From NCBI RefSeq assembly GCF_022549215.1, contig NZ_JAKZFC010000004.1, positions 186,001 to 250,000 on the forward strand: DNA of 64,000 nt, written 5' to 3'. Each line of letters starts with the position of its first letter. Within the stretch, counting starts at the first letter, position 1. The translations under genes were made by a program, and so were the position numbers. Below are positions 4,286 through 22,070 of the stretch, one piece after another. Source of the stretch: Solibacillus palustris. Lineage in GTDB: Bacteria > Bacillota > Bacilli > Bacillales_A > Planococcaceae. The notes beneath the pieces are model-generated. The model saw only the letters and a program-made list of their open reading frames with translations, had not been told where the DNA came from and searched no databases.

Positions 4286-4687
4286 ATGGCGATTTCAATG
4301 ATGGAAGCATACGGGATTGAACTATTAAAAGCGAATGGCATTTCGTTTGAACAATTAAGTGAGCAATTTAAGCAAAATAAGAGTGCATTTAATATTGATG
4401 AAAACTTTGACTTTACAGAACTCAAATCACTTTATGACACGGATTTTGTCACATTCAAACAAGCATACACGGATATTTATACCGTAAAATTTATGACAAT
4501 CAACGGCTTGCGTAATATTATGCGTATGCGCTTTAATATCCCGATTGAGCAATATGAAACATTAGAAACGGGCAACGGATTAAGAAATGTGCCCGCATCA
4601 GAAAGTATTGAACAGCAAATTCGAACAATCGTTTCCTCAAATTGGAACGTGGAGCGTAACGATAAGACGTTAACGTTATTCGTATAA
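4286..4687 (+). CDS. conserved-looking protein of unknown function
   Basis: 133 residues from ATG 4286 (SD AAAGGGG at 4271-4277). An in-frame ATG at 4247 preceded by AAAAGG would give 146 residues and cannot be excluded. The sequence is soluble, alpha-helical and mixed-charge, with no membrane segment or motif I recognise. It lies 41 bases after the degenerate recombinase and directly abuts the 44-residue membrane ORF, so the three probably form one transcript. Confidence 0.65.
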   Translation: MAISMMEAYGIELLKANGISFEQLSEQFKQNKSAFNIDENFDFTELKSLYDTDFVTFKQAYTDIYTVKFMTINGLRNIMRMRFNIPIEQYETLETGNGLRNVPASESIEQQIRTIVSSNWNVERNDKTLTLFV

Positions 4688-6959: not shown

Positions 6960-8483
6960 TTGAATTCCAAACGTAACAACTCGAAAACAATGCTAATTCT
7001 CACAACATTTGTTGTCTTATTATCAATCTTTGCCCATCTATTACATCGTCAATTTCATTTTTTAGATGGCTATTTATTGCTGCAAGGCATTTCAAATGTT
7101 GTTGGTGGTCTGTATGTTATGATGAATGTTCTATTTGTTATTCCAGTAGTTTTATTAGTAATCACTTTTTTGCTATACAGAAAACAGCATGATGCTCTGC
7201 AATTATTCATGACACTATCGTTAACATTTAGTAGTATTTCCATCATCGCTGGTGGTGACGGCTTAACGGAATATCATTTCTCCATTTTTATGGTTGTAGC
7301 GATGATCGCTAGTTTCCAACAAGTTAGGTACATTATTATTAGTACGGCTATTTTTACTGTACACCATTTAACTGGCTATTTTTTCTTTCCACAGCTGTTA
7401 TGTGGAACCGAAGATTATAGCTTTGCATTACTCATGATTCATGCGATTTTCTTAGTGATGACGGCTGTTTCTACAAGCATTGTTATTATATCAACTCGCA
7501 AAGTGGAAACACGTTTAGCAGCAGATAATGATATAGCAGAGCAGCAATTGCAACAATTATTACGTCAAATTAATGAAGAAAGTAATCATTTACACGAGTT
7601 ATCGGCACAAATTGCAATCGACTCTTCCGCTTCTTTTGATTCAAGTCAGAATATTACCAATGCATTATCAAAATTCCAGCAAAATGCAGAAAATGAAGCG
7701 AATTCATTAACCGTAAGTGTACGCAAAAACGAGGAAAGTATCCAGCAATTAGCAAGTATTCATGAACGTACTGAAAATGTAACGCAAAATGCGAAACACA
7801 GCCTAGAACGTGCAGCTCTTGGTAAAGAGAAAGTAAATGCCGTAACAAACCAAATGCTTGTCATTACCGATACGGTTGCATCGATTAAGCATCTAATCGA
7901 AATATTAGAATCACAATCGATAAATATTTCAAACTCCTTAATGGTCGTTCATAACATTTCTGAACAAACAAAGCTACTGGCACTCAATGCATCTATTGAA
8001 GCTGCACGTGCAGGGGATGCAGGAAAAGGCTTTTCTGTCGTTGCAAGTGAAATTCGAAATTTAGCATCTAGTACACAAGAATCTGTAGTAAAAATGGATA
8101 GTGTACTTGAAGGGATTCAACTTCAAATCGGTAAAGTTGCACAACAGATGCAAATCGGTATGGAAGAAATTTATAAGGGTGATCAGTTTATTCGTGAAAG
8201 TGAGCACGCTTTTGAAACAATCTTAAAGACGATTTCAACATTAGAACAAGATATTGATCATATTTCAAATGCTACAAAAGATGTCGTTAACCAGACGCAG
8301 TTATCGAGTTCATTATTCAGTGAAATTGCTAATATGAATGGGCAATCACTTCAAACCGTTAGTATTATTACTGATTCTGCCCGTCAGCAACAAACAGCAT
8401 CGCAAAGTTTAGGACAAGTAATCACCCAATTAAACGCTGTAACCACTCAGTTAAAAGCGTTAACAGATCAAATGCATTCCTAA
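6960..8483 (+). CDS. methyl-accepting chemotaxis-type receptor with six-helix membrane sensor
   Basis: 507 residues from TTG 6960, chosen because GAAGGTGG at 6947-6954 lies five bases upstream; the in-frame GTG 6951 is inside that SD. The N-terminal ~185 residues carry about six membrane helices with [10 protein letters not shown] and VHHLTG motifs, a His/Glu pattern seen in some integral-membrane sensors. There is no Cache, PAS or HAMP domain. The cytoplasmic coiled coil has the conserved MCP tip ([18 protein letters not shown], then [13 protein letters not shown]), which contacts CheA/CheW. No che genes are nearby. The ligand is unknown. Confidence 0.88.
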
Positions 8484-8554
8484 GGCCAAATGGGCATTAC
8501 AAATCGCTAGTGAATAATTACTACTTTTATCACACAATTTATTTCTCATCCTAT

Positions 8555-8595
8555 AAAACCATTTTAAAAGCCTCCCTTTCGAAATGGTTTTTTAC
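8555..8595 (+). terminator. intrinsic terminator
   Basis: AAACCATTT / AAATGGTTTTTT arms flank a 17-base loop downstream of the receptor gene. Confidence 0.7.
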
Positions 8596-8773
8596 TATTT
8601 TCAGGGTATTTTTGACCTATTAACATATGATGAAATTGTGAATGTTTCATAGTAGCCTATGAAATATTAATACTATTTTGCAGAAAAAGTTGGCTAAAAC
8701 AGGGAAACCAATTTATAATTTTTAGATAAGAACATTGTAATTTTTATAATCCAAATGAATTGGAGAGGTTATC

Positions 8774-10480
8774 ATGACCAAAATGACAGAATCAAAAATT
8801 CTTGAATCAATGGAATTATCATACGAACAGCTTGTCGATTTAAAAGCTGCACTCGATAAAACTTCAATTGTAGCAGTAACAGATAAAAAAGGGCTAATTT
8901 TGCAAGTGAATGATCAATTTTGCGAGATTTCAAAATATAATCGTGAAGAACTAATAGGCCAAGACCACCGCATTTTAAATTCAGGCTATCATCCGAAGTC
9001 ATTTTTCAAAGAAATGTGGCGCGCGATTGGCAACGGTGAAACATGGCAAGCTGATGTTTGTAACCGTGCGAAAGACGGATCACTGTATTGGGTAAAAACA
9101 ACAATTGTTCCGTTCATAGGGGCAAATGGTAAACCAGAGCGTTATATATCAATTCGAACTGATATTACAGCACAAAAGAACATAAAAAAAATTGCACATA
9201 TCGCATATCATGATGATTTAACTGGTCTACCAAACCGTCGCAGTCTTTCAAAACGTATTGAAAACGAAATATCAAATGGCTTACGTAATAAAGATCAATT
9301 TGCTGTATTTTTCTTTGACGTAAATCGTTTTAAAAATATTAATGACAGTTTAGGACATAAAATAGGCGACTTATTTTTAATCGAATTAGCGAAGCGTTTA
9401 ACTGATATAGATACGCAATCAAATTCGTTCTACCGCATGAATGGCGACGAATTTGTTTATATTTTAGAAGACGTAAAATTTGTAAACGAAATGGCTGAGA
9501 AAATTTTAGATGTCTTTAAAGCAAGCTTTGTCTTTGACGAATATGAGTTTTACGCCAGCATTAGCTTAGGTATTAGTGTTTATCCGGATCACGGGGAAAA
9601 TGTATCGAAGTTATTAAAAACAGCAGATATTGCAATGTACGCAGCGAAAGCGAAAAAAGGCAATAGCTATAGTGTCTACAGAAAATTAATGCGCGGTTCA
9701 AATGATCAATTTTTAGTGTTAGAAACAAAGCTACATAAAGCATTACGTGAAAACATTTTTGAGCTACGATTCCAGCCAACATATAACCTACAATCAGGAA
9801 AAATCATTGGTACAGAATCGATTATTTATTGGCATGACGAAGATTACGGTGAAATGAATCCGGTTGAATTTATGCCATTTGCATCCCAATGCGGCTTAAT
9901 TATTGAAATTGATCAATACGTATTAAAAAATTCGATTCAACATATGGTACAGCTAAAGCCGCATGTCGATGATGACTTCAAAATTTCTGTGAATTTATCG
10001 ACAGATTATTTAAAAGATGCGAACTTTATTGTTGATTTAACAACTTATTTAGAAGAAGCTCAGCTTGATTCTAAGTATATTGAAATTGAAATCTCTGAGT
10101 TATGTTTACTAGATACGGATTTACAGTTGTACGATAAAATCAATCAAATTCATGAATTGGGCGTTACAATTTCAATTGATGATTTCGGTATGGGTTACTC
10201 GTCACTAAGCTATTTACGTGAAGTGCCAATCAGTTTATTAAAAATTGATCAATCATTTACTCATGAGCTAAACCTTGTACCCGCAAATGCCAAAATGGTA
10301 GCGGCGATTATTTCACTGGCAAGCGCACTGAACTTACAAGTGGTAGCGACTAAAGTGGAAAATGGTGAAGACCTAGCTATTTTAAAAGAGTTAAACTGCT
10401 CATTCGTTCAAGGGTTATATTTAAATGATTTGCTTCCTTTACAAGATCTCATCGCATTTATTGAAGAAAAAAATAATTAA
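8774..10480 (+). CDS. PAS-GGDEF-EAL protein (c-di-GMP related), EAL site degenerate
   Basis: 568 residues: PAS about 25-135 (GQDHRILNSGYHPKSFFKEM), GGDEF about 140-305 with active-site motif NGDEF at 223-227, and an EAL-like domain about 320-560. The EAL signature reads ESI (348-350), and the usual AEGVE motif reads ATKVE, though IDDFGMGYSSL and LLKIDQSF remain. The cyclase half could still work because NGDEF/SGDEF variants can be active. The phosphodiesterase half has probably lost catalysis and may bind c-di-GMP. No transmembrane segment. A single gene directly downstream of a chemoreceptor. Confidence 0.88.
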   Translation: MTKMTESKILESMELSYEQLVDLKAALDKTSIVAVTDKKGLILQVNDQFCEISKYNREELIGQDHRILNSGYHPKSFFKEMWRAIGNGETWQADVCNRAKDGSLYWVKTTIVPFIGANGKPERYISIRTDITAQKNIKKIAHIAYHDDLTGLPNRRSLSKRIENEISNGLRNKDQFAVFFFDVNRFKNINDSLGHKIGDLFLIELAKRLTDIDTQSNSFYRMNGDEFVYILEDVKFVNEMAEKILDVFKASFVFDEYEFYASISLGISVYPDHGENVSKLLKTADIAMYAAKAKKGNSYSVYRKLMRGSNDQFLVLETKLHKALRENIFELRFQPTYNLQSGKIIGTESIIYWHDEDYGEMNPVEFMPFASQCGLIIEIDQYVLKNSIQHMVQLKPHVDDDFKISVNLSTDYLKDANFIVDLTTYLEEAQLDSKYIEIEISELCLLDTDLQLYDKINQIHELGVTISIDDFGMGYSSLSYLREVPISLLKIDQSFTHELNLVPANAKMVAAIISLASALNLQVVATKVENGEDLAILKELNCSFVQGLYLNDLLPLQDLIAFIEEKNN

Positions 10481-10489
10481 ACGTTCATT

Positions 10490-10617
10490 TACGCCTCGGC
10501 ATAATTGCGTCCAGATTTTTTTCGTGCTTGCTTTAATAACTTCACTGAAAAATCTGTGACATCTGCCAGAGGCTTTAACTTGCTTCAGCAGGGGTTGGAA
10601 CCTCACTGAAGCAAATT
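10490..10617. repeat. composite palindromic repeat, short copy (R1)
   Basis: It contains TACGCCTCGG(C)ATAATTGCGTCC, the stem CAGATTTTT / AAAAATCTG and the block GTGACATCTGCCA, all shared with the longer copies at 53.6 and 55.9 kb. It lacks their central hairpins. It sits between two convergent genes, next to a terminator. Confidence 0.7.
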
Positions 10618-10620
10618 AAA

Positions 10621-10651
10621 AGGAGTGTCCCGTAGCTAGTGGGACACTCCT
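10621..10651. terminator. bidirectional terminator
   Basis: Perfect 11-base arms AGGAGTGTCCC / GGGACACTCCT with T-rich flanks on both strands, between convergent genes ending at 10480 and 10655. Confidence 0.8.
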
Positions 10652-10654
10652 TCT

Positions 10655-12028
10655 TTAATTATTCAAATGACTTTCAATTCGGGCAAACTCATCTAAATCA
10701 ATGCTTTCGATATATTTGTAAAGCACATCGATATTGACTTGAATTTGGTCCTTATGTGACAAATAGAAATCCTCGGTTAAATGACGAATAATTAATGGCA
10801 CAACTTTGGAATGATTAAAACGATGCATATACTTTTCTAAAAAGTCGGTATTGACCGCTATATCTGTATTTTGGCCTAGTGCTTCAAAATCTATATATTT
10901 TATATGGGCCATTAAAAACTCTTCTGTTAAATGCTCATTATACTGACAGACATACGACCAATCGATTTCGTTTTTGTAGCGATTAATCCAGTGTAATTCT
11001 GATACAGCCGTAAATAACTTTTGCTGTGTTTTTGACATGATCGTAAACTTGTCGTCCATCTCGCTATTCGTTAATCGCTTATCGCCATAACGGTCGTATC
11101 TTTGACTTTTTAATGACGGGATACCTTTCACTAAATGCTCGCTACCTGGCCATTTATAATTTCCACGGTCATATTCGAAATATTGTAAGTCCATGACTGG
11201 AATTTCATCTGATTCTGGTAAGTAGACAATGTCAAATGATCGATAAAAGATATTACTTTCGATAAAATCGTCTATTTGATCTACAAAATCTGGATGAATA
11301 TGCTTTTTATTTTTTAATAGCTCATCGATTAAAAAACGTTTGAAGCTCGTTGTAAGACGATTTAATACACTTTTATTATGCTGAAGTGCTTCTAAGTTCA
11401 CTGCTTGTAGATGTTCAATTAAAAACTGCTCCGATAATAATGGGTTCTTATAACAAATGTACGTAAACGGAATATAGCCTAAATAAGGTAGTAGCTTACT
11501 ATAGTGCTGCTTGGCGGCTAAATGCAGCCAGTTGTAATATGAATTAATAAACGCGCGGTCATACGGTAATATTTCATAAACCGCTTCATCATTAGATTCT
11601 AATGCCCGGATTACAGATAATGAATCAAAATGAGCCACGTCGAAGTCATTAGGAAACGGAATGGCCTCAAACGCCTTTTTTATATGGATTTGAACTTTCG
11701 GCTTTGTTGAAAGGAAGCTATATGTACCTATTGCGCCGCGCTCTTCCAGTAAAATATATGCAAGTTCCTGGCGTTCTTCATTCGTTAGTTCGCAACCCTT
11801 TGGAAACTTCACTGATGCAAAATATTGGGCTTTTGCTAAATCGTAAAAGAATTTATAGTCTCCTGCTTTTGTATAGGGCTCTTCAGAATTGTTTTGCTGC
11901 CAATAGAGAAGGGCGCCATTTATCGTTTCATAATTCGAAAACGTAATATTCGCGATGGAAAAAATATTTTGTGCTAATGCATCATCATACAATACTTTCA
12001 TAAATTCTATTTTTTTAATTTTAAGCAT
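10655..12028 (-). CDS. 457-residue protein of unknown function with internal repeats
   Basis: ATG 12028 is preceded by GGAGGTG. There are no membrane segments or signal peptide. The sequence is rich in aromatic and charged residues. A motif of the form LS/TEEFLxxHhxxhxxEALxxN recurs at least three times (around 195-230, 375-405 and 425-450), suggesting a helical repeat scaffold. No catalytic motif is recognised. It is flanked by terminators on both sides, so it is transcribed alone. It may be a scaffold or interaction protein (inference only). Confidence 0.75.
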   Translation of the reverse strand: MLKIKKIEFMKVLYDDALAQNIFSIANITFSNYETINGALLYWQQNNSEEPYTKAGDYKFFYDLAKAQYFASVKFPKGCELTNEERQELAYILLEERGAIGTYSFLSTKPKVQIHIKKAFEAIPFPNDFDVAHFDSLSVIRALESNDEAVYEILPYDRAFINSYYNWLHLAAKQHYSKLLPYLGYIPFTYICYKNPLLSEQFLIEHLQAVNLEALQHNKSVLNRLTTSFKRFLIDELLKNKKHIHPDFVDQIDDFIESNIFYRSFDIVYLPESDEIPVMDLQYFEYDRGNYKWPGSEHLVKGIPSLKSQRYDRYGDKRLTNSEMDDKFTIMSKTQQKLFTAVSELHWINRYKNEIDWSYVCQYNEHLTEEFLMAHIKYIDFEALGQNTDIAVNTDFLEKYMHRFNHSKVVPLIIRHLTEDFYLSHKDQIQVNIDVLYKYIESIDLDEFARIESHLNN

Positions 12029-13773: not shown

Positions 13774-14125
13774 TCAGCTGTGATGCTGCCTCAATATTGT
13801 AGCATGAAAATTACTATTTTTATGGCAGAATTCAAAATAAAGTCATATAAAAATCAAAAGTTTAAGAATGTAGGTTTTATTGAATATTCATCATTAAATC
13901 TAAATAGAAAGAAATCATTCTATAAAAATTATAATTCTCAATTCATAGAATAAGCAATATCAACAGTCAATACAACAAATGTAATATATTTGCATATAGC
14001 TTCTTTATTTCCAATATTTTATACTTATAACAACATCGTTTCAGAAAAGGGCAAAATAAAAAACAAATCAAGACAATATTATAGCTACAAGAACTAAACC
14101 CTTAAACGATTCAAGGAGTGAGAAG
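13774..14125. other. AT-rich intergenic stretch
   Basis: About 350 bases containing the minus-strand promoter region of the small gene (TGCTACAAT, an extended -10, at about 13795-13803) and the leader of the ABC operon. I see no other gene or repeat. Confidence 0.4.
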
Positions 14126-15052
14126 ATGACGGTTATTTCATTGCAACATGTCACAAAGGATTATGGACATGGACGGGGGATTTTTGATGTTTCATTTAAT
14201 GTTGAACAAGGTACTGTATATGGATTTCTAGGACCAAATGGGGCTGGAAAAACAACTGCCATTCGTCACATTATGGGATTTTCAAAACCAGAGAAAGGGA
14301 TCGTAACAGTAAATGGTCTAGATTGTTGGACAAATGCTAAAACTATCCAAGAAAACCTTGGCTATTTGCCTGGCGAAGTAGCATTACCTGAAAATTTAAC
14401 AGGCAAACAATTCATTCAAATGATGATGGATTTGCGAAAAGTTAAAGATGATACCCATTGTAAAAAACTAATGGAATTCTTTGACCTTGATGCTTCAGGA
14501 AAGGTAAAACGTATGTCACTTGGTATGAAGAGAAAATTAGCAATTGTGACGGCATTCATGCATGATCCGGATGTACTCGTCCTAGATGAGCCTACAAGCG
14601 GTTTAGATCCGATTATGCAGCAACGTTTTATCGACTTTGTAAAATTAGAGAAAAAGCGCGGCAAAACAATATTACTTTCAAGCCATATTTTCACTGAAAT
14701 TGATGCTACTTGTGATGAAATTTCGATTATTAAAGATGGTTACTTGATTTCTTCATTTAACAAACAAGAACTCTTAAAAATGACAGAAAAGGTCTTTAAT
14801 TTGACAGTTCAAAACGCAATGCATTATATGCAGCTTGTGCAAATGATTGAATCGAATGGCTTTAATCTACTCTTTAAAAATGAACAAACAAATGAACTTC
14901 AAATCGGCTGTTATCCAAATGATTTATCAAAGCTCATTAAAATACTAGCTGATTTTCCTATTTCTAGTTTCAACGAAGTGCCGTTTAGTTTAGAAAAGCA
15001 TTTCATGGAATTTTATGATCGACGGGTAGGGGGGGAAATCCAGTGGCAATAA
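14126..15052 (+). CDS. ABC transporter ATP-binding protein (first of a tandem pair)
   Basis: 308 residues. Walker A GPNGAGKTT (about 35-43), an altered signature RMSLGMKRK in place of LSGGQ, and Walker B VLVLDEPTSGLDP. The signature form and the ~80-residue C-terminal extension match BcrA-like/ABC-2 exporter ATPases. SD AAGGAGTGA before ATG. It overlaps the next gene by ten bases. The operon of two different ATPases with one ABC-2 permease suggests a heterodimeric ATPase exporting a drug, peptide or lipid (family knowledge; substrate not known). Confidence 0.9.
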   Translation: MTVISLQHVTKDYGHGRGIFDVSFNVEQGTVYGFLGPNGAGKTTAIRHIMGFSKPEKGIVTVNGLDCWTNAKTIQENLGYLPGEVALPENLTGKQFIQMMMDLRKVKDDTHCKKLMEFFDLDASGKVKRMSLGMKRKLAIVTAFMHDPDVLVLDEPTSGLDPIMQQRFIDFVKLEKKRGKTILLSSHIFTEIDATCDEISIIKDGYLISSFNKQELLKMTEKVFNLTVQNAMHYMQLVQMIESNGFNLLFKNEQTNELQIGCYPNDLSKLIKILADFPISSFNEVPFSLEKHFMEFYDRRVGGEIQWQ

Positions 15053-15939
15053 TCGAATTACAAAATGTAACGAAAGATTACGGAGATCGTCGAGGTATTT
15101 TTAATATCGATCTTTCAATAGAATCGGGTGAAGCATTTGGATTTGTCGGCACAAACGGGGCTGGCAAAACAACGACAATTCGGCACCTTATGGGATTTTT
15201 AAAACCACATATCGGAACAGTGAAAATTAAGAACCTTGATGCATGGCATGATGCGGCGGAAATCAAACAGTGGATTGGCTATATTCCAGGTGAAATTGCC
15301 TTTCCTGATGTAAAAACGGGTTGGGATTTCATCCATCAGCAAGCAGATCTGTTACAACTAATGGATTTAAGCTTTGCAAACGAGTTAATTGAACGACTTC
15401 AACTCGACCCTTCAGCAAATATTAAACGGATGTCAAAGGGAATGAAGCAAAAAACAGCCATTGTTGTCGCATTGATGGCCAACGCTCCAATTCTTATTTT
15501 AGATGAACCTACAACGGGACTTGATCCATTGATGCGAGCAGAGTTTATACAAATTATTAAAGACGAAAAAGCAAAGGGCAAAACAATTTTTATGTCTAGC
15601 CACATGTTCGAAGAAATCGAGGAAACTTGTGATAAGGTGGCGATGATTAAAGAAGGGAAGATCATTACAATCAAATCGATATCAACGATTATGTCAAATG
15701 ATAATCAACAATTTATCATCGAGTTTAGTAATGAACAAGAATGTACGCGCTTTATGCAAGAAAAGATTGATTCTGTAGCTATTAGCAACACAACTGCTTC
15801 TGTAAATATTGAAAACAATACATTAAATAAATTTTTAGCTATTTTATCAACATATCAATTCGATAATTTAACAGAACAAAAACATACACTTCAAGAGCAG
15901 TTCTATCATATATATTCAGGAGGCCCATCCCATGATTAA
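15043..15939 (+). CDS. ABC transporter ATP-binding protein (second of a tandem pair)
   Basis: 298 residues starting at GTG 15043 inside the end of the previous gene, behind GGGGGGG. Walker A GTNGAGKTT, signature RMSKGMKQK, Walker B ILILDEPTTGLDP. It is clearly paralogous to the upstream ATPase over its whole length (VTKDYGDRRGIFNI against VTKDYGHGRGIFDV), so the pair arose by tandem duplication. It overlaps the permease gene by eight bases. Confidence 0.9.
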   Translation: MAIIELQNVTKDYGDRRGIFNIDLSIESGEAFGFVGTNGAGKTTTIRHLMGFLKPHIGTVKIKNLDAWHDAAEIKQWIGYIPGEIAFPDVKTGWDFIHQQADLLQLMDLSFANELIERLQLDPSANIKRMSKGMKQKTAIVVALMANAPILILDEPTTGLDPLMRAEFIQIIKDEKAKGKTIFMSSHMFEEIEETCDKVAMIKEGKIITIKSISTIMSNDNQQFIIEFSNEQECTRFMQEKIDSVAISNTTASVNIENNTLNKFLAILSTYQFDNLTEQKHTLQEQFYHIYSGGPSHD

Positions 15940-16717
15940 TGGTACGATATTTAAACAAACCTTACGGAATAATGTAAAGCTTTGGCTTATTTTTACTTTA
16001 GTATTAATTTTACTACAAGTAATTATGGTTGCTGTATTTGATGATAGTACATTGACAGATATTAGTCATTTAGTAGAGGGTACACCACTTGCAGGAATGC
16101 TCGGACAAACGACATTACTAAGTATGCTTGCTTCAACATTCTATTCTATTCATGGTGTCATATTCCCAATTATATTCATAATTATGACAGCAAATAGTTT
16201 AATAGCCACTCAAGTGGATCGTGGTTCTATGGCATACTTATTATCAACACCAACCAAACGTTCTACAATTATCGTTACGCAAGCCTTTTACTTAATAGTA
16301 TCTTTAGTAGTGATGTTCTTTATTGAAACAGTGGCTGGTTTTATCGCAATTCAAGTGTTTCAATCTGAGACGGACATCGTGATAGCTGATTTTATTATGC
16401 TGAATGTTGGTTTATTTTTATTAATGTTTGCTATTAGTAGTATTTCGTTCTTTTTCTCAAGCTACTGCAATTTAACGAAAAACTCCCTTGCTTTTGGTGC
16501 TGGTATTCCGATTGCCTTCTTTTTATTTCAGCTAATAAGCTCCGTTGACGATAGTCTTGACGTACTAAGCTACTTCACAATAAATGCATTGTTTGATACG
16601 ACGGCAATTCTAGAAGGGGAAAACTATTGGTGGAAGCTAGGTCTTCTTTTAGGTATTGGCATCGTTCTCTATATAGCTAGTTTAGAAGTATTTAAACGGA
16701 AGGACCTTCCACTTTAA
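15932..16717 (+). CDS. ABC-2 type permease
   Basis: 261 residues with about six membrane helices. There is a large extracytoplasmic segment after the first helix and the typical ATQVDRGSMAYLLSTPTKR coupling region of ABC-2 permeases at about 90-109. It starts inside the second ATPase gene behind AGGAGG and is followed by a strong terminator. It completes the three-gene exporter. Confidence 0.88.
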   Translation: MINGTIFKQTLRNNVKLWLIFTLVLILLQVIMVAVFDDSTLTDISHLVEGTPLAGMLGQTTLLSMLASTFYSIHGVIFPIIFIIMTANSLIATQVDRGSMAYLLSTPTKRSTIIVTQAFYLIVSLVVMFFIETVAGFIAIQVFQSETDIVIADFIMLNVGLFLLMFAISSISFFFSSYCNLTKNSLAFGAGIPIAFFLFQLISSVDDSLDVLSYFTINALFDTTAILEGENYWWKLGLLLGIGIVLYIASLEVFKRKDLPL

Positions 16718-16724
16718 TCTATAT

Positions 16725-16768
16725 AAAAACGAGCATGCAAATTATTAGACTTGCATGCTCGTTTTTTT
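16725..16768 (+). terminator. strong intrinsic terminator of the ABC operon
   Basis: Perfect 16-base arms AAAAACGAGCATGCAA / TTGCATGCTCGTTTTT followed by TTT. Confidence 0.9.
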
Positions 16769-16856
16769 CTATTAAGCACTACGAGAAGATGGGGAAGAGA
16801 TGTATACGCTATTAGAGGATATAGCGCGTTATATTAAAAGAGTTGTAATTGATTAT

Positions 16857-16965
16857 TGTTGTGTAGAATTAAATACAGTGCAACGTTTGATATAGTCACC
16901 AGTCGTTTTTATTTGGCTTAAAACTAAAGAAGCATTGATTTCATTGGTGCACTTTTTACTTAGCA
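16857..16965. repeat. worn copy of the 13.5-kb intergenic module
   Basis: CAGTGCAACG, TAGTCACCAG, TCGTTTTTAT, TTGGCTTAAAAC and ATTGATTTCATTGG align in order with 13490-13600, with substitutions and small gaps (roughly 70 percent by eye). Only the first hairpin is partly kept. It lies 5' of the HD-GYP gene, whose promoter region (16966-17112) shows nothing else distinct. Confidence 0.55.
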
Positions 16966-17112
16966 ACCATATTCGAGTGTCCACTAGACAAAATAGAGCA
17001 GCTTTTTCAAAAGTTTTTTCCTTGCATAAAGCCCGTGATATATATAGAACTAACTTCCAATCTCGTGTTATAATAAGGTCTATTAATTGGTAAATAAATT
17101 GCGAGGTGAAAA

Positions 17113-18306
17113 ATGAAGAAAACGTCTTTGTTACAAGAAGAAAAGCATTCAACAATACTGTTTTTATGGCTATTTTATGTTGTATTTTTTGTATATGAAA
17201 TATTGTATAATAACCTTTTCCCAGCATTTCCATGGAGCGATGCTAATGCAAAGAGTACAATATGGTACGATTTTATGTTTGTTAAATATGGAGTTATGAT
17301 TGCACTCATCCCTTTATCTATTTATTTGATTAAAAAGGAGCAAACAGAATCTGTAAAATACATATTATTTTTCGGTTATTTTTTAACTAATGTAATTTCA
17401 GATATATTGTATTATAAAGACAGTACGCTTACTTACACTAGCGGAAACATGGTAGAACTTGTAGTTGTACTTTTCGCTCCAATCTTTGTAAACAAGAAAT
17501 TTACATATTTTATAACAGTTGGTTTATTACTAAAATATATTTTGGTTGGTATATTTATACAGGATCCATTGATTTTGTTTCCAATTAGTATATTGATAGT
17601 GCTGTCATTTATTTCCTTTGTACTACTTCATCGTTTTTTAAATTATATAAAAGCGTTGAAGTACTCATATGACGAACAATTGGAAGGTATTGTTAAAGGA
17701 GTCATTGCAATACTGGAGTTAAAGGATCCGTATACTCGTGGACATAGTGAACGAGTTGCTGCATATGCAATGAACATGGCAGAAGCTACTGAAAAATTTA
17801 AACCGTCCGAGTTAAATTATTTTTATTATGCCTGTCTATTACATGATATTGGGAAAGTTAATATACCGGACTCGATTTTGACAAAGTCTGGTAGATTGAC
17901 AGATGAAGAATATAGTATAATTAAGACGCATCCGGTTGTTGGAGCCGAAGCGATTCGAGATGTCGATGGGATTGCTGATAATATTGAAGTGATTTACCAT
18001 CATCATGAAAGATGGGACGGCAAAGGGTATCCAGATGGACTGGCCGGGGGAGATATTCCTTTTTTAGCCAGAATTACGGCGGTTGCCGATGCTTTTGATG
18101 CGATGACTTCATCCAGGTCCTATCGTCCGGCACTTCAATTTGAAGAAGCATATAAACGAATTCTCGATGGACAAGGGAGTCAGTTCGATCCACAACTGAT
18201 CGAATTATTTAAACAAGTTTACCCTCAATGGATGCAAATTTCTAAAACATATCGAAAGGGTATGTACATGAGAGGAGGAGAAAAACGTGAAAATTCGCAA
18301 ACTTAA
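17113..18306 (+). CDS. membrane-anchored HD-GYP domain protein
   Basis: 397 residues. About six membrane helices fill 12-182. An HD-GYP domain follows, with HD at 244-245 (LLHDIGKVNIPDSIL), HHHER at 296-300 and GYP at 305-307 (WDGKGYPDGL), all metal ligands intact. HD-GYP enzymes hydrolyse c-di-GMP or related cyclic dinucleotides. The membrane half may be a sensor. SD GAGGTG before ATG. Its last 20 bases overlap a micro-ORF with a very strong SD, and a PqqD-M50 protease follows, so its output or input may be tied to that peptide (inference). Confidence 0.88.
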   Translation: MKKTSLLQEEKHSTILFLWLFYVVFFVYEILYNNLFPAFPWSDANAKSTIWYDFMFVKYGVMIALIPLSIYLIKKEQTESVKYILFFGYFLTNVISDILYYKDSTLTYTSGNMVELVVVLFAPIFVNKKFTYFITVGLLLKYILVGIFIQDPLILFPISILIVLSFISFVLLHRFLNYIKALKYSYDEQLEGIVKGVIAILELKDPYTRGHSERVAAYAMNMAEATEKFKPSELNYFYYACLLHDIGKVNIPDSILTKSGRLTDEEYSIIKTHPVVGAEAIRDVDGIADNIEVIYHHHERWDGKGYPDGLAGGDIPFLARITAVADAFDAMTSSRSYRPALQFEEAYKRILDGQGSQFDPQLIELFKQVYPQWMQISKTYRKGMYMRGGEKRENSQT

Positions 18307-18352
18307 TAAAATTAAAGTGACTTGCTGGTGGTGTTGGTTAATTCCGAAATGA
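18287..18352 (+). CDS. 21-residue Trp/Cys-rich micro-peptide (candidate signal peptide, RiPP-like precursor or attenuator leader)
   Basis: GTG 18287 has the near-consensus SD AGGAGGAG (18273-18280) six bases upstream and overlaps the HD-GYP stop in another frame. The peptide begins with a basic half (RKLNKIK) and ends T-CWWCW-LIPK. A hairpin with T-tail (18368-18397) lies before the PqqD-M50 gene, as is common between RiPP precursors and their enzymes. The alternative reading is a Trp/Cys leader peptide controlling that hairpin by attenuation. Direct evidence is SD, context and composition only. Confidence 0.55.
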   Translation: MKIRKLNKIKVTCWWCWLIPK

Positions 18353-18367
18353 TTAGTAAGTACTTAT

Positions 18368-18397
18368 AGGATGCTGTAATTTCAGCATCCTATTTTA
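18368..18397 (+). terminator. intercistronic terminator/attenuator hairpin
   Basis: AGGATGCTG (18368-18376) and CAGCATCCT (18383-18391) pair perfectly around a 6-base loop, followed by ATTTTAATTT. It lies between the micro-ORF and the protease gene, so it can lower or regulate protease expression relative to the peptide. Confidence 0.75.
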
Positions 18398-18418
18398 ATT
18401 TATAGAGGAGGCTATATA

Positions 18419-19612
18419 TTGAAAGTATCCTTACAATCCAAAATAACGTTATATCCGCTATCCATTCAAAAAGATAAAAAAAATTATATCGTGGAGGAGC
18501 CGATTTCTGGTGATTTCTTTGAATTACCTGAGATAAGTGTTGATGCAATTAAACGATTGGACAAAGGTGAAGGTCTAGCTGCGATTGAAAAGACACTAAA
18601 AGATTCTTATCCCGAGGAAGAAGTGGATATCATTGAATTTGTAGATCAATTGGTAGAGTTAGGCCTTGTTCAAGATGTGGATGGGGTTCGAGTTAATAGA
18701 GATAAAGAGAAGCAGGCTAAATCTGTATCAAATGCAGGTGGTTTCTTATGGATCCCACACTGGGTTGGACATTTGTTTTTTAATGGAACGATGAACAAGG
18801 TTTACTTGCTTCTGCTAGTATCGAACGTATTAATTCTTATTCTAAATCCAGAACTATTGCCCCATTACAAAGACATATTCCTATTCGATTCCATGGTGTT
18901 AAATGTAATTAATTATCTATTAATTTCTATAGTATTAATTTTAATTCATGAATTTGGGCATGTCTTGGCCATTCGATCGTATGATTTACCTGCTAAACTA
19001 AGTATCGGACACCGGCTGATTTTTATTGTTTTTGAAACTGACCTGACTCAAGCGTGGAAGCTCGATCCTAAACAGAGGAATATCCTGTATCTTGCTGGCA
19101 TGTCTTTTGAGCAGATCATTCTTTTCCTTTCATTCGGTTTTATGCTTCTTTTTCCAGATGCAAATTTTGTAGGAATTCTTAGCATCATCGTGTTAGATAT
19201 TTTTATTAAATCAATATATCAATGCTGTTTCTATATGAAAACAGATGTATATTATGTTGTAGAAAATGTAACAGGATGTTATAACCTGATGGAGAGTGGC
19301 AAAATATATTTAAGTTCATTCCTTAAGAGACATCAGAAATCAGGGAAGAATCATAAAGAGATGTTCCAGAATGAATGGAATTTGATTCGTATATATAGCG
19401 CATTTTACATAGTTGGAGTTTTTTTAACGTTACTTTTGACAGTTTTGTATTTTTTACCACAGCTCTATTATATGTTTAGTACAATATATTTTAATATTCT
19501 GGGAGCAGGAGATCGTGCAGCGCTTTGGGATGCTATTGTATTTTTAGTACAGACAACGTTCATGCTTGTCTTGTTGGTTTATTTGGCAAGAAAAGAAAGG
19601 CGTAAGAATTAA
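18419..19612 (+). CDS. PqqD-like domain fused to M50 membrane zinc metalloprotease
   Basis: 397 residues from TTG 18419 (SD GAGGAGG eight bases upstream). Residues about 5-95 look like a PqqD/RiPP-recognition wing. The rest is polytopic with HEFGH at 177-181 and a KTDVYY third-ligand motif at 274-279, as in peptide zinc metalloproteases such as YydH. All zinc ligands are present. PqqD-M50 fusions usually sit beside peptide genes. Here the only candidate substrate is the CWWCW micro-peptide just upstream. No radical SAM or ABC gene is adjacent, so the set is minimal. Confidence 0.8.
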   Translation: MKVSLQSKITLYPLSIQKDKKNYIVEEPISGDFFELPEISVDAIKRLDKGEGLAAIEKTLKDSYPEEEVDIIEFVDQLVELGLVQDVDGVRVNRDKEKQAKSVSNAGGFLWIPHWVGHLFFNGTMNKVYLLLLVSNVLILILNPELLPHYKDIFLFDSMVLNVINYLLISIVLILIHEFGHVLAIRSYDLPAKLSIGHRLIFIVFETDLTQAWKLDPKQRNILYLAGMSFEQIILFLSFGFMLLFPDANFVGILSIIVLDIFIKSIYQCCFYMKTDVYYVVENVTGCYNLMESGKIYLSSFLKRHQKSGKNHKEMFQNEWNLIRIYSAFYIVGVFLTLLLTVLYFLPQLYYMFSTIYFNILGAGDRAALWDAIVFLVQTTFMLVLLVYLARKERRKN

Positions 19613-19633
19613 TAAACGATTCTATAATATTTA

Positions 19634-19840
19634 TTGGGGTATTTAAACAATTTCACAATAAAAGAGGGCACAAAGCTGAATTCAATAGGTTTGCATCGAT
19701 TAAAAAATGATTTCAAAGCAAACTCATATTTAGGAATTACTCAAGTTGATAATCATGCAATGAAAAAAATAATGCTTTCAAATGGCTGCATTCAAAGTGA
19801 AAGTACAATATTTTCATTAGAATATTATGCTGAACAGTAG
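19634..19840 (+). pseudogene. fragment, possibly the C-terminal end of an acetyltransferase
   Basis: The frame from TTG 19634 lacks an SD. Its second half (YLGITQVDNHAMKKIMLSNG) resembles the C-terminal alpha4-beta7 region of GNAT acetyltransferases, but no acetyl-CoA loop precedes it. It is probably gene debris between the protease and the hydrolase. It could also be spurious. Confidence 0.3.
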
Positions 19841-19923
19841 ATATTGTACTTCAAGGAATAGTATTGTTCTTGAAGATACATACTACTAAGCAACATAATA
19901 GTATTTGTTTGAGGTGATTAGGA

Positions 19924-20703
19924 TTGCCAATGTTAGATGTTGAAAGTTGTAGCTTATACTATCAAGCAAAGGGTGAAGGAACCCCAATTGTCTTTATTCA
20001 TCCTCCATTACTTACCTGCACAAACTTTGTTTATCAATTAGAACAATTATCTAAAATATATAAAGTAATCACCTTTGATATTAGAGGTCATGGAAGAAGT
20101 GTGTATTCCAAACAAGCGATCACATACCCACTCATTGTTAATGATATTGTTAATTTATTAAATCATTTAGGTATAGAGAAAGCGTTTATTTGTGGATATT
20201 CAGCAGGTGGCTCTATTTTATTAGAGTTTTTATTGACGAATCCCAGTAGGGCATTAGGTGGTATTTTAATTAGCGGAATGTCTGAAGTGAACGATATTTA
20301 TTTAAAGCAGCGAATTTCTTTAGCAATCAAACTAGCAAATAAAAAAGCCATTTCTATTCTAACACTTGCCATTACATGGGGGAATTCCAAGACTCGAAAA
20401 ATATTTAGTAAACTTTACAAAGATGCAACCTATGGAGACGCACGAAATATCCAGCAGTTTTACCGTTATAGCCTACACTATAATTGTACAAGTCGTCTTC
20501 AAGAGATTGATTCACCGCTTTTGCTTGTGTTTGGTACGAAAGACAAATCATTTCATCAATATGCTCGCATACTGCATGAAAAATTGCCAAATAGTGAATT
20601 AACGTTTTTAGAAAAAGAAAAACACCAAATTCCGACTAAAGCAGCAATTAAATTAAACGAAACGATTGATGAGTTTATCCAGAATCAGCAGGATGTAAAT
20701 TGA
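19924..20703 (+). CDS. alpha/beta hydrolase
   Basis: 259 residues from TTG 19924 (SD GAGGTG seven bases upstream; an ATG at 19930 is the alternative). The nucleophile elbow is GYSAGG (about 89-94), the catalytic aspartate is likely in VFGTKDKSF, and the histidine in EKEKHQIP. The oxyanion motif region is FIHPPLL. Normal length for the family. Substrate unknown: lipase, esterase or haloperoxidase-like are all possible. Single gene with its own terminator. Confidence 0.85.
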   Translation: MPMLDVESCSLYYQAKGEGTPIVFIHPPLLTCTNFVYQLEQLSKIYKVITFDIRGHGRSVYSKQAITYPLIVNDIVNLLNHLGIEKAFICGYSAGGSILLEFLLTNPSRALGGILISGMSEVNDIYLKQRISLAIKLANKKAISILTLAITWGNSKTRKIFSKLYKDATYGDARNIQQFYRYSLHYNCTSRLQEIDSPLLLVFGTKDKSFHQYARILHEKLPNSELTFLEKEKHQIPTKAAIKLNETIDEFIQNQQDVN

Positions 20704-20790
20704 GGAAATAACAGTGGGTAGAACTTCAATTCCCAAAAATAAGTACCTTTTTTAACAAGGAAAGTTGTTTTAAATCACTAAAATAAACAA

Positions 20791-20822
20791 AAGCCTTACT
20801 ATGTTCATATGTAGTAAGGCTT
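20791..20822. terminator. bidirectional terminator
   Basis: AAGCCTTACTA / TAGTAAGGCTT perfect arms around a 10-base loop, between convergent genes. Confidence 0.75.
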
Positions 20823-20966
20823 ATAAAAGTTGTTAAAAACCGAATTGATCTAAAAGAATTTTACTGCATAAAAGGATAGTAAAGTCATATAATTCTTTTT
20901 TAACCAAAGCACGATAACTGGAAGCTCCATTCTTTTACGTCTAATACCCTAATTATTATTATGAAG

Positions 20967-21431
20967 TTATTTAGGAATTACAGGAACCCAAAGTTCGTTT
21001 CTTGGTTTATGCTTTGGTGGATAATAACATTCGATACAAGGTATATCAGCCAGTTCATATCCAGAATTTGGAGCCCATTCTGTGTATAATTGCTTCCACG
21101 CATTCGCTATTCCTGGAAAAACAGCCCAAGTACGGTGAGTAATGAATAGCGTTTCCATATCACTGGTTACCTCTCCATCATATCGGACCCCCATAAAGTA
21201 ATTAAATTCTTCATCCATAATGGTTGACTCTTTTCCACAAACACCTAAAAGACTCTCAAGAGTGCATTTTGGTTCTTCCCAGGACATATCAATCAAATGT
21301 TGCATAAATCCATCTTTTTTAGCACTACTCCAAAGCGTTGGAATTGTTTTAAAGGCTCCACTTGTTTTGACTAGCTTACCTTTTCCTATAACTTTTAAAT
21401 CAAAATCAAGATTCTCAATCCGATAATCCAT
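20967..21431 (-). CDS. GyrI-like / AraC effector-binding domain protein
   Basis: 154 residues, a stand-alone small-molecule-binding domain of the GyrI/SOUL type. The pattern MGVRYDG, HRTWAVFPG, WAPNSGYELADIPCIECYYP is characteristic of the C-terminal sensor of AraC/MerR regulators and of YdeE-like proteins. There is no HTH. It is preceded by AAAGGGG. The role could be binding of a toxic or signalling ligand (family knowledge). The upstream neighbour is a lipoprotein remnant. Confidence 0.75.
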   Translation of the reverse strand: MDYRIENLDFDLKVIGKGKLVKTSGAFKTIPTLWSSAKKDGFMQHLIDMSWEEPKCTLESLLGVCGKESTIMDEEFNYFMGVRYDGEVTSDMETLFITHRTWAVFPGIANAWKQLYTEWAPNSGYELADIPCIECYYPPKHKPRNELWVPVIPK

Positions 21432-21477
21432 TTGGCATCCCCTTTATCATGTTTTGGAGGAAAATTCCTGTAAAAAC

Positions 21478-21659
21478 TTTTAACCTTTGCGTTTTTATAG
21501 CTAAATACATACTTGCCATTTACTCTTGTTTCATAATCAGAAATATTAGTAGAGTATTCACCATTTCAGTTGTCACTTTCTCCTGAACAAGAAAAGGTTT
21601 TATCATTACAACCAATAATCAACAAAATAAAAGGAAACAAAAAATAGCAAGCGTTTCAC
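21478..21659 (-). pseudogene. decayed lipoprotein gene fragment
   Basis: The minus strand has GGGAGG, then GTG (21657-21659) and a hydrophobic signal stretch. A frame change is needed to continue into FILLIIGC (a lipobox-like Cys), then NDKTFSCSGESDN. A TGA follows where a codon such as TGG is expected, before NGEYSTNISDYETRVNGKYV. A frameshift plus a nonsense codon mark it as a pseudogene. The 3' part is missing. Confidence 0.5.
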
Positions 21660-21935
21660 ATTGCGACCTCCCGTTAACCTCATTCTCTATTTTATTCTAC
21701 TTTCAAAAGACTCTATCCTTCTTCCGCTAGACTACCCAATAGGTACATAAGGATTTGTAAATCATTCAACTTTATTATCTCTTTACAAAATAAAGTATCG
21801 TCCTAAATTCTAAATATTAAGTTTATAGGTAAGAGGTTTGCAGATCAGAACGAAAAAGCAGCACACTCGTAAAATTAACGAATGTACTACTTTATTTTTT
21901 TATATTTAACAACAAGCTAACTATGTATTAGATGC

Positions 21936-22070
21936 GCTTAGGTCTAAGCTACATAGGATGAAGTAATTCTAATTCACCTTGTGGACGAACAGTACCACAG
22001 CTAAGCTCGTTTGGATCAATAGTAGGATTCATGCTTTGATACTTTCTACAGCAGTATCAATCGATAAGTG
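21936..22070 (-). pseudogene. internally deleted fragment of a flavoprotein gene 3' end (copy 1 of 3)
   Basis: Plus-strand blocks GTCTAAGCTACATA, AAGTAATTCTAATTCACC, GTGGACGAAC, CCACAGCTA, TTTGGATCAAT and TATCAATCGATAA match the fragment at 28434-28760 in order. A central ~160-base stretch present there is missing here. No intact frame remains. A weak T-tailed hairpin lies just before it at about 21857-21905. Confidence 0.6.

Follow-up and report, generated by a model that had tools for sequence, protein, structure and literature searches.

The window analysed here is a stretch of 64,000 nucleotides (nt) from Solibacillus palustris (contig NZ_JAKZFC010000004.1, positions 186,001–250,000 of the forward strand). 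Within it we studied a cassette of three genes, at 17113–19612 of the window, that encode a membrane protein with MASE12 and HD-GYP domains, a micropeptide carrying the motif CWWC, and a membrane M50 metalloprotease whose N-terminal domain is predicted to resemble PqqD and the recognition elements (RREs) of ribosomally synthesized and post-translationally modified peptides (RiPPs). Its features, with lengths in amino acids (aa) and the short open reading frame (ORF) of the peptide called the micro-ORF, are:

17066–17074, plus strand: candidate extended −10 promoter element of the operon, TGTTATAAT, picked out from the sequence
17113–18306, plus strand: gene for a MASE12 membrane sensor fused to a predicted HD-GYP phosphodiesterase, 397 aa (Pfam)
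17134–17631, plus strand: MASE12 domain, aa 8–173 (Pfam PF20971, E 1.8e-64)
17704–18198, plus strand: HD-GYP catalytic domain, aa 198–362 (Pfam HD_5, E 9.4e-41)
18273–18278, plus strand: AGGAGG ribosome binding site of the micro-ORF, eight bases before its GTG
18287–18352, plus strand: micropeptide gene, MKIRKLNKIKVTCWWCWLIPK, GTG start, 21 codons and stop
18366–18393, plus strand: terminator-like hairpin with an 11-bp stem and T-rich tail, in the peptide–protease spacer
18406–18411, plus strand: AGGAGG ribosome binding site of the protease gene
18419–19612, plus strand: gene for the PqqD/RRE-like and M50 membrane metalloprotease, 397 aa, TTG start
18443–18688, plus strand: predicted PqqD/RRE-like domain, about aa 9–90 (Foldseek)
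18947–18961, plus strand: HEFGH zinc-protease motif
19238–19246, plus strand: KTD motif, likely to hold the third metal ligand

The micro-ORF starts 20 nt inside the end of the HD-GYP gene, and 66 nt separate it from the protease gene. A first-pass annotation of the window had described a 21-codon ORF with a strong ribosome binding site overlapping the HD-GYP gene, and a protease that keeps HEFGH and KTDVYY; both descriptions hold. At the place of the candidate −10 element most aligned Solibacillus rows carry GTGTTATAAT or GTGCTATAAT, the exceptions being L002, L032 and L033; the element is absent from the matches of a consensus promoter scan.

Homologous loci came from two samples. A search of 261 genomes of the family with the M50 protein matched 28 and yielded 22 close homologues (identity at least 60%) and six remote ones (L024–L029; identity at most 27%). 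A profile scan, restricted to one genome per species, yielded 40 named loci with M50 identities down to 38%, ranging from Solibacillus, Sporosarcina, Ureibacillus and Oceanobacillus to Virgibacillus, Gracilibacillus, Neobacillus and Paenibacillus. Eight named loci duplicate genomes of the family search, seven by identical HD-GYP ends and one (L036, equivalent to L021) by the same place. The total is 62 loci from about 54 genomes, with 50 distinct peptides, from Solibacillus to Paenibacillus; three further peptides (L106–L108) lie beyond the 62.

Conservation of the peptide and its Shine–Dalgarno sequence beside homologous proteases, on which the first-pass annotation had made its proposal depend, holds in every locus with a close M50 homologue. 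A counterpart of the peptide occurs in 62 of 62 loci, each time with a Shine–Dalgarno-like sequence at most 20 nt before the start. The short CWWC-type ORFs that the annotation had proposed to look for stand directly upstream of M50 in all 22 close family homologues and in all 40 named loci; the CWWC peptide is absent upstream of M50 in all six remote family homologues. Most of the 50 distinct peptides have the form MK[IV]RKLxK[IV]K[VTA]TCWWC followed by a variable, mainly hydrophobic tail; one peptide (L053) has two additional residues ahead of CWWC. The mean charge ahead of CWWC is +5.3, the hydrophobic part from CWWC onwards spans 7–12 residues, the first Trp is Phe or Tyr in 5 of 49 peptides, and the C-termini differ in length and sequence between loci. 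Across 60 loci the median overlap between the start of the peptide gene and the end of the HD-GYP gene is 4 nt, and the two overlap in 37 of the 60. NCBIfam returned no model match for the three peptides tried.

The pattern of codon change indicates that the micropeptide is under purifying selection. For codons 2–16, synonymous and non-synonymous differences (pS and pN) are 0.356 and 0.051 among 11 Solibacillus/Ureibacillus genes (pN/pS 0.14), and 0.668 and 0.098 among 49 of the 50 distinct genes (pN/pS 0.15), L053 being excluded for its two-residue insertion. Constraint on the tail is weaker, with pN/pS of 0.39 in Solibacillus/Ureibacillus and 0.77 across all.

The order MASE12-HD-GYP, peptide, protease, which the annotation had proposed to follow across Bacillales genomes, is found in 40 of 40 named loci, the HD-GYP gene lying upstream on the same strand with 111–428 nt between its end and the M50 gene. 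The contig of L034 starts within the HD-GYP gene, and the match is in two pieces; L036 has the HD-GYP gene, its MASE12 match being found in G205, the genome of L021. MASE12 was detected in 33 of the 34 named genomes, the miss being that of L034, where the contig end cuts the gene.

The three parts also occur together at the level of genomes. Among 398 Bacilli genomes, the peptide profile matches nine at E<1e-7 (next match E 3.5e-3), the M50 profile nine at E<1e-150 (next 3.1e-78), and MASE12 is present in nine, as 11 proteins; these are the same nine genomes. Among the 261 family genomes, strong MASE12 matches (E<1e-40) and close M50 homologues coincide in the same 22; there are two weaker MASE12 matches, one below the Pfam cut-off (G209) and one above it at 34 bits (G106). 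Four of 16 Solibacillus genomes (G002, G010, G013 and G014) lack MASE12, M50 and peptide alike. Thus, MASE12, the peptide and the close M50 protease are present or absent as a block and, judged from gene content and order, HD-GYP protein, peptide and protease are a constant, self-contained unit across Bacillales.

No other gene accompanies this unit with comparable constancy. When ORFs of at least 80 aa were clustered over 41 loci (the 40 named loci and the window, with flanks of up to 10 kb on each side), no family besides HD-GYP and M50 appeared in more than 10 loci, and no modification enzyme, radical SAM epimerase, ligase or immunity gene recurred constantly. Only 10 of the 41 have ABC ATPase homologues, mostly at other positions. 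The earlier statement that no radical SAM or ABC partner is adjacent stands in that neither is constant at these loci; as to ABC genes it needs qualifying for the window, where genes for two ABC ATPases and one ABC-2 permease (14126–16717, same strand) end about 400 nt upstream of the HD-GYP gene. We set these genes aside as exporters because they are not constant neighbours. By Pfam, AgrB, ComQ and Rgg are not in the unit, its two proteins matching MASE12, HD, PqqD and M50 together with weak unrelated models. Upstream, only one other neighbour recurs, a short gene of GGDEF type that lies on the same strand in 6 of 41 loci; in L050 the GGDEF motif is seen in the gene directly upstream of the cassette, at −1994 to −1311 from the M50 start.

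The first-pass annotation had identified the protease as a PqqD–M50 fusion. Its Pfam scores lie under the cut-offs for both PqqD (E 0.0016, 19.2 bits; cut-off 23.4) and M50 (E 0.0041, 16.9 bits; cut-off 27.2); the identification is supported instead by the predicted fold of the N-terminal domain and by invariant M50 motifs. Across 26 aligned homologues the H, E, G and H of HEFGH and the K, T and D of KTD do not vary, giving an HExxH motif with a downstream Asp. The best NCBIfam match is the daptide intramembrane metalloprotease NF041824 (E 3.1e-5, residues 118–324), of which the protease is not a member by that model, scoring 23.3 bits against a cut-off of 300. An AlphaFold2 model built from 26 sequences has a mean pLDDT (predicted local distance difference test) of 86.5. 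In Foldseek its best PDB matches are the RRE domains 6jx3, 5v1v and 5v1u, followed by McbB, TigE, CteB and ThcOx, and several of the RRE structures were solved with a leader peptide; the N-terminal domain is therefore predicted to be PqqD/RRE-like. RRE domains elsewhere bind short leaders; here the natural candidate for a leader is MKIRKLxKIK, conserved in the peptide encoded next door. For the membrane part, no RiPP- or M50-type structure is among the 50 matches listed, and a PDB sequence search with the M50 profile gave a best E of only 0.08.

Two details of the protease gene stand apart. A vicinal Cys pair just ahead of KTD (YQCCFYMKTD; 19223–19228) is present in 24 of 26 aligned close homologues. 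We rejected it as a mark of CWWC-linked proteases: it is not required, AA and LC variants occurring in L106 and L107, and its apparent specificity is discounted because the pattern by which the named loci were found included the pair. L020 contains one in-frame TGA within the M50 match of G206.

A recognition-like domain beside a short peptide might suggest a RiPP-type natural product: the M50 protease would mature the peptide into an antimicrobial or metal-binding compound that acts by way of CWWC, and the HD-GYP protein would tie its production to cyclic di-GMP (c-di-GMP). A short precursor-like gene does adjoin the enzyme in 62 of 62 loci. However, constant modifying, exporting and immunity genes are wanting in the 41 loci, which makes such a product less likely, and MASE12 also occurs on kinases (see below), which points to sensing; CWWC, moreover, is nearly fixed, unlike many bacteriocin cores. 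As passages of PMC10885120 describe, membrane M50 proteases do mature RiPPs, EpeP acting for epipeptides and TglG and TmoG for pearlins. On balance we consider a natural product improbable. A further alternative is the least probable of those that we weighed: that the peptide is a pearlin-like scaffold from whose C-terminus the M50 enzyme trims a modified residue. Pearlins need an aminoacyl-tRNA-dependent ligase; the locus has no further constant gene and hence no constant ligase of this kind, and the peptide C-termini vary as described above. What recommends the comparison is that TglG and TmoG remove the C-terminal residue of a scaffold peptide (passages of PMC10885120).

The HD-GYP half of the upstream protein has the attributes of a phosphodiesterase. 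In an alignment of 45 of the 60 HD-GYP frames, with the window replacing L001, the residues of HD.GK and HHERWDG.GYP are invariant, and the fold matches PA4781 (4r8z, TM-score 0.82 by target) and also 4mcw. With the HD pair, the HHE..DG.GYP residues and the modelled fold all in place, c-di-GMP hydrolysis is predicted. The MASE12 domain returned no structural match in a PDB fold search. Of the domains compared it evolves fastest (mean pairwise identity 0.42, versus 0.71 for HD). Over the 24 loci whose two proteins are both represented in the alignments, MASE12 divergence correlates better with M50 divergence (rho 0.71) than with divergence of the HD domain on the same chain (rho 0.43).

MASE12 is not confined to phosphodiesterases. 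Some cassette genomes encode, in addition to the cassette MASE12-HD-GYP protein, MASE12 histidine kinases. MASE12 is joined to Pfam HisKA and HATPase domains in L143 (1465–2703) and L144 (1405–2682) and to regions matching NCBIfam kinase models in L176 (4147–6960) and L178 (3796–5040), and kinase motifs of the type HE[IV][KR]NP occur in the MASE12 proteins of L060, L064, L068, L177 and L180. Other coordinates of MASE12 fused to histidine kinase domains are:

L177, 876–2108
L179, 5949–7220
L180, 4907–6514

Some of these kinases adjoin the cassette; those of L176, L177 and L178 lie at other places and have no CWWC peptide beside them. In those tested, the kinase half additionally scores against the model of the sporulation kinase KinD, under its cut-off. 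Because MASE12 is common to the phosphodiesterase and the kinases and, in the 398 Bacilli genomes, is confined to those bearing the peptide, we propose, on this circumstantial evidence, that MASE12 reads the peptide.

Between the peptide and protease genes lies a conserved hairpin. A stem of 7–17 bp is present in 53 of 53 loci tested, and at least six T within 12 nt mark the 3′ end of the hairpin in 59 of 62 loci. The stem is mostly GGATGCT/AGCATCC, with compensated variants such as GGTAGTT/AACTACC in L054 and AAGATGCTTCTC/GAGAAGCATCTT in L069. A terminator scan of the window found three sites versus 1.5 (sd 1.5) in shuffles, which is not significant alone; the case for the hairpin is made by its conservation across loci and by the single match of its motif in the window versus 0.00 expected. 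RNA family models gave three matches at 14000–22000, all far under the gathering score. Most likely the hairpin lowers the protease transcript relative to the peptide transcript.

The tandem Trp codons of the peptide also recall a trp-type leader, in which Trp and flanking Cys codons would sense charged tRNA and control read-through into the protease gene; the terminator-like hairpin follows the second Trp codon at a distance of 22–96 nt, most commonly some 34 nt. We therefore tested for attenuation in 52 loci of the 62, omitting duplicates and close copies as we did in the hairpin test. Watson–Crick complementarity to the 5′ arm of the hairpin is not longer than in shuffles (3.73 versus 4.02); counting G–U pairs, it is slightly longer (7.33 versus 6.25), a small point in favour. 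Mean energies are −6.3 kcal/mol for the alternative duplex, −6.8 in synonymous or shuffled controls and −15.3 for the terminator itself; an antiterminator within 2 kcal/mol of the terminator occurs at none of the 52 loci. Moreover, the non-Trp residues 2–12 are kept as amino acids with silent changes, and the substitutions of the first Trp noted above fit a tRNA sensor poorly. With no antiterminator by Watson–Crick pairing or duplex energy, attenuation is disfavoured and a trp-type leader highly improbable.

The reading that we prefer, to which we assign a probability of roughly 55%, is that a micropeptide processed by the M50 protease signals through MASE12 to c-di-GMP hydrolysis within a self-contained cassette. 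Constraint, gene order, co-occurrence and the hairpin are observed, and to them the model adds a predicted RRE-like fold. The micropeptide would be translated from the operon, and the RRE-like domain would bind its conserved basic leader, MKIRKLxKIK. The membrane M50 domain would then cut it, at a site presumably beyond the leader, to leave a short C-terminal product with CWWC and the hydrophobic tail. This product may be released in the membrane or exported by a housekeeping transporter and, possibly in the form of a CxxC disulfide loop or as a dithiol, be sensed in or at the membrane by MASE12, which would switch the fused HD-GYP enzyme and so change c-di-GMP in one direction or the other. 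In some species the MASE12 histidine kinases could read the same signal, and the hairpin would keep substrate above enzyme. The first-pass suggestion of a minimal peptide-signalling or RiPP-like unit thus survives as to the conserved three genes, the constrained peptide and the predicted RRE-like domain; its RiPP-like part is half borne out, with a predicted recognition domain and a precursor-like peptide and no constant modifying enzyme.

Several points weigh against this reading. Processing, release or export, reception and the direction of the c-di-GMP change are steps that we infer. The RRE matches have a probability of 1.00 and E values from 0.04–0.05, none below 0.001, over about 85 of 397 residues. 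The co-occurrence counts are not phylogenetically independent, coming from 5 of 146 genera in the Bacilli sample; the named loci were drawn with two short M50 patterns, and the family was sampled rather than exhausted. G106 has a MASE12-like HD-GYP gene with neither CWWC peptide nor M50 in the 9 kb read; this divergent gene, the single exception to the co-occurrence across the 261 family genomes, lies at 4437–5597 of L181 (reverse-complement coordinates). Over the 24 loci, similarity of the peptide tails is uncorrelated with MASE12 divergence (rho 0.06), where a specific pheromone–receptor pair might be expected to co-vary. Finally, no dedicated exporter or re-importer is constant within 10 kb on either side in the 41 loci.

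The last two points sit well with the main rival, which shares almost all of the evidence: the intact peptide would be a membrane-associated microprotein that binds MASE12 and holds the HD-GYP enzyme (or kinase) off or on until the RRE-M50 protease removes it by regulated intramembrane proteolysis, so that the trigger acts on the protease and the signal stays in the cell. The short, hydrophobic, Trp-rich end after a strongly basic half would suit such a protein. However, a hydrophobic part of 7–12 residues is too short for a membrane span, and an RRE-like domain on the protease is more like precursor maturation than membrane surveillance; we regard the microprotein as unlikely, if the most serious competitor. 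For the processed signal, the wider claim is more tentative and stands somewhat below even odds: a new class of peptide communication in which an RRE-guided membrane protease and a CWWC micro-pheromone serve MASE12 receptors wired directly to c-di-GMP hydrolysis and, in some species, to histidine kinases, and in which neither an exporter nor a modifying enzyme is dedicated to the peptide.

Related loci bear on what such proteases do. In another genus of the family (G085, G086 and G093), three near-identical 21-codon ORFs, each with its own Shine–Dalgarno sequence, stand in tandem before a remote RRE-M50 homologue. Their form is M[KA]KIKVK[VA]LPKVGLPANRA[NT]T (MKKIKVKVLPKVGLPANRANT and variants), and they contain a KIKV stretch similar to the one in the CWWC peptide. 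Their positions are:

L130, 7702–7971: tandem 21-codon ORFs
L131, 8103–8372: tandem 21-codon ORFs
L132, 6315–6584: tandem 21-codon ORFs
L130 (G086), 8060–11422: remote RRE-M50 region, then DUF2785 and ThiF genes (Pfam)

Tandem copies of another short peptide next to a related protease lend support to the view that such RRE-M50 proteases act on adjacent small peptides; the loci themselves resemble a small RiPP-like system of their own. In 26 Bacilli genomes there is also a second tier of M50 homologues (E 1e-42 to 1e-78; L109–L129). Among the matches listed, these loci have a similar-looking upstream gene, ThiF by Pfam in the one tested (L114), and the CWWC peptide is not seen.

Mobile carriage received no support. 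No relative occurs in viral_contigs; among plasmid records, M50 matches occur in 27, with a best listed identity of 28% and 21 of the 27 in Streptomyces, and no HD-GYP match spans 80% of the query. PADLOC gave HD-type and CARF matches only, all weak.

If the processed-signal reading is true, a peptide encoded in the genome would directly control c-di-GMP turnover, and MASE12, a domain named in Pfam, would gain its ligand. M50 proteases that are fused to an RRE but lack modification enzymes would then be recognisable as a signalling module. Being small and found in environmental Bacillales, the cassette is tractable gene by gene.

The first-pass annotation knew of no described system with the same set of parts, and our literature search agrees: titles and listings gave no report of the cassette, bioRxiv and most subscription papers being outside coverage, and no relevant paper using the word MASE12 was found. 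A census of c-di-GMP stimuli uses ‘peptide’ once and ‘pheromone’ never in its main text (PMC8846402). Among maturation systems, the cassette is like those of EpeP, TglG and TmoG in that a membrane M50 protease would act on a small ribosomal peptide. EpeP, formerly named YydH, is PqqD-fused, and usual RiPP precursors are about twice as long as the cassette peptide. Passages of PMC10885120 give cleavage and export of EpeX as the presumed role of EpeP. The cassette differs from the epipeptide and pearlin loci in having no constant radical SAM epimerase or ligase and in its link to MASE12-HD-GYP; the daptide protease is the nearest NCBIfam likeness, with the cassette protease far below its cut-off. 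With the short hydrophobic peptide (SHP)/Rgg systems of streptococci, which would work alike, the common ground includes Eep, itself an M50 protease, and SHP precursors with a basic N-terminal part. Passages of PMC5167397 describe, for SHP, Eep, PptAB and Rgg, a very short peptide gene, a required membrane metalloprotease and no dedicated exporter, PptAB being conserved among Firmicutes. The cassette departs from them in placing the protease in the operon with an RRE-like domain, and in a candidate receptor that is membrane MASE12 rather than cytoplasmic Rgg. With other MASE-type sensors it shares the layout of a one-component membrane sensor fused to a c-di-GMP enzyme. Agr and ComQXP each combine a processing membrane enzyme, a peptide and a membrane receptor within one operon, the same three roles that we propose here; in the cassette they would be filled by other families (Pfam), with an HD-GYP enzyme as the receptor output. 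The cassette thus looks like an undescribed peptide-signalling system whose parts are drawn from other families than those of the classical operons.

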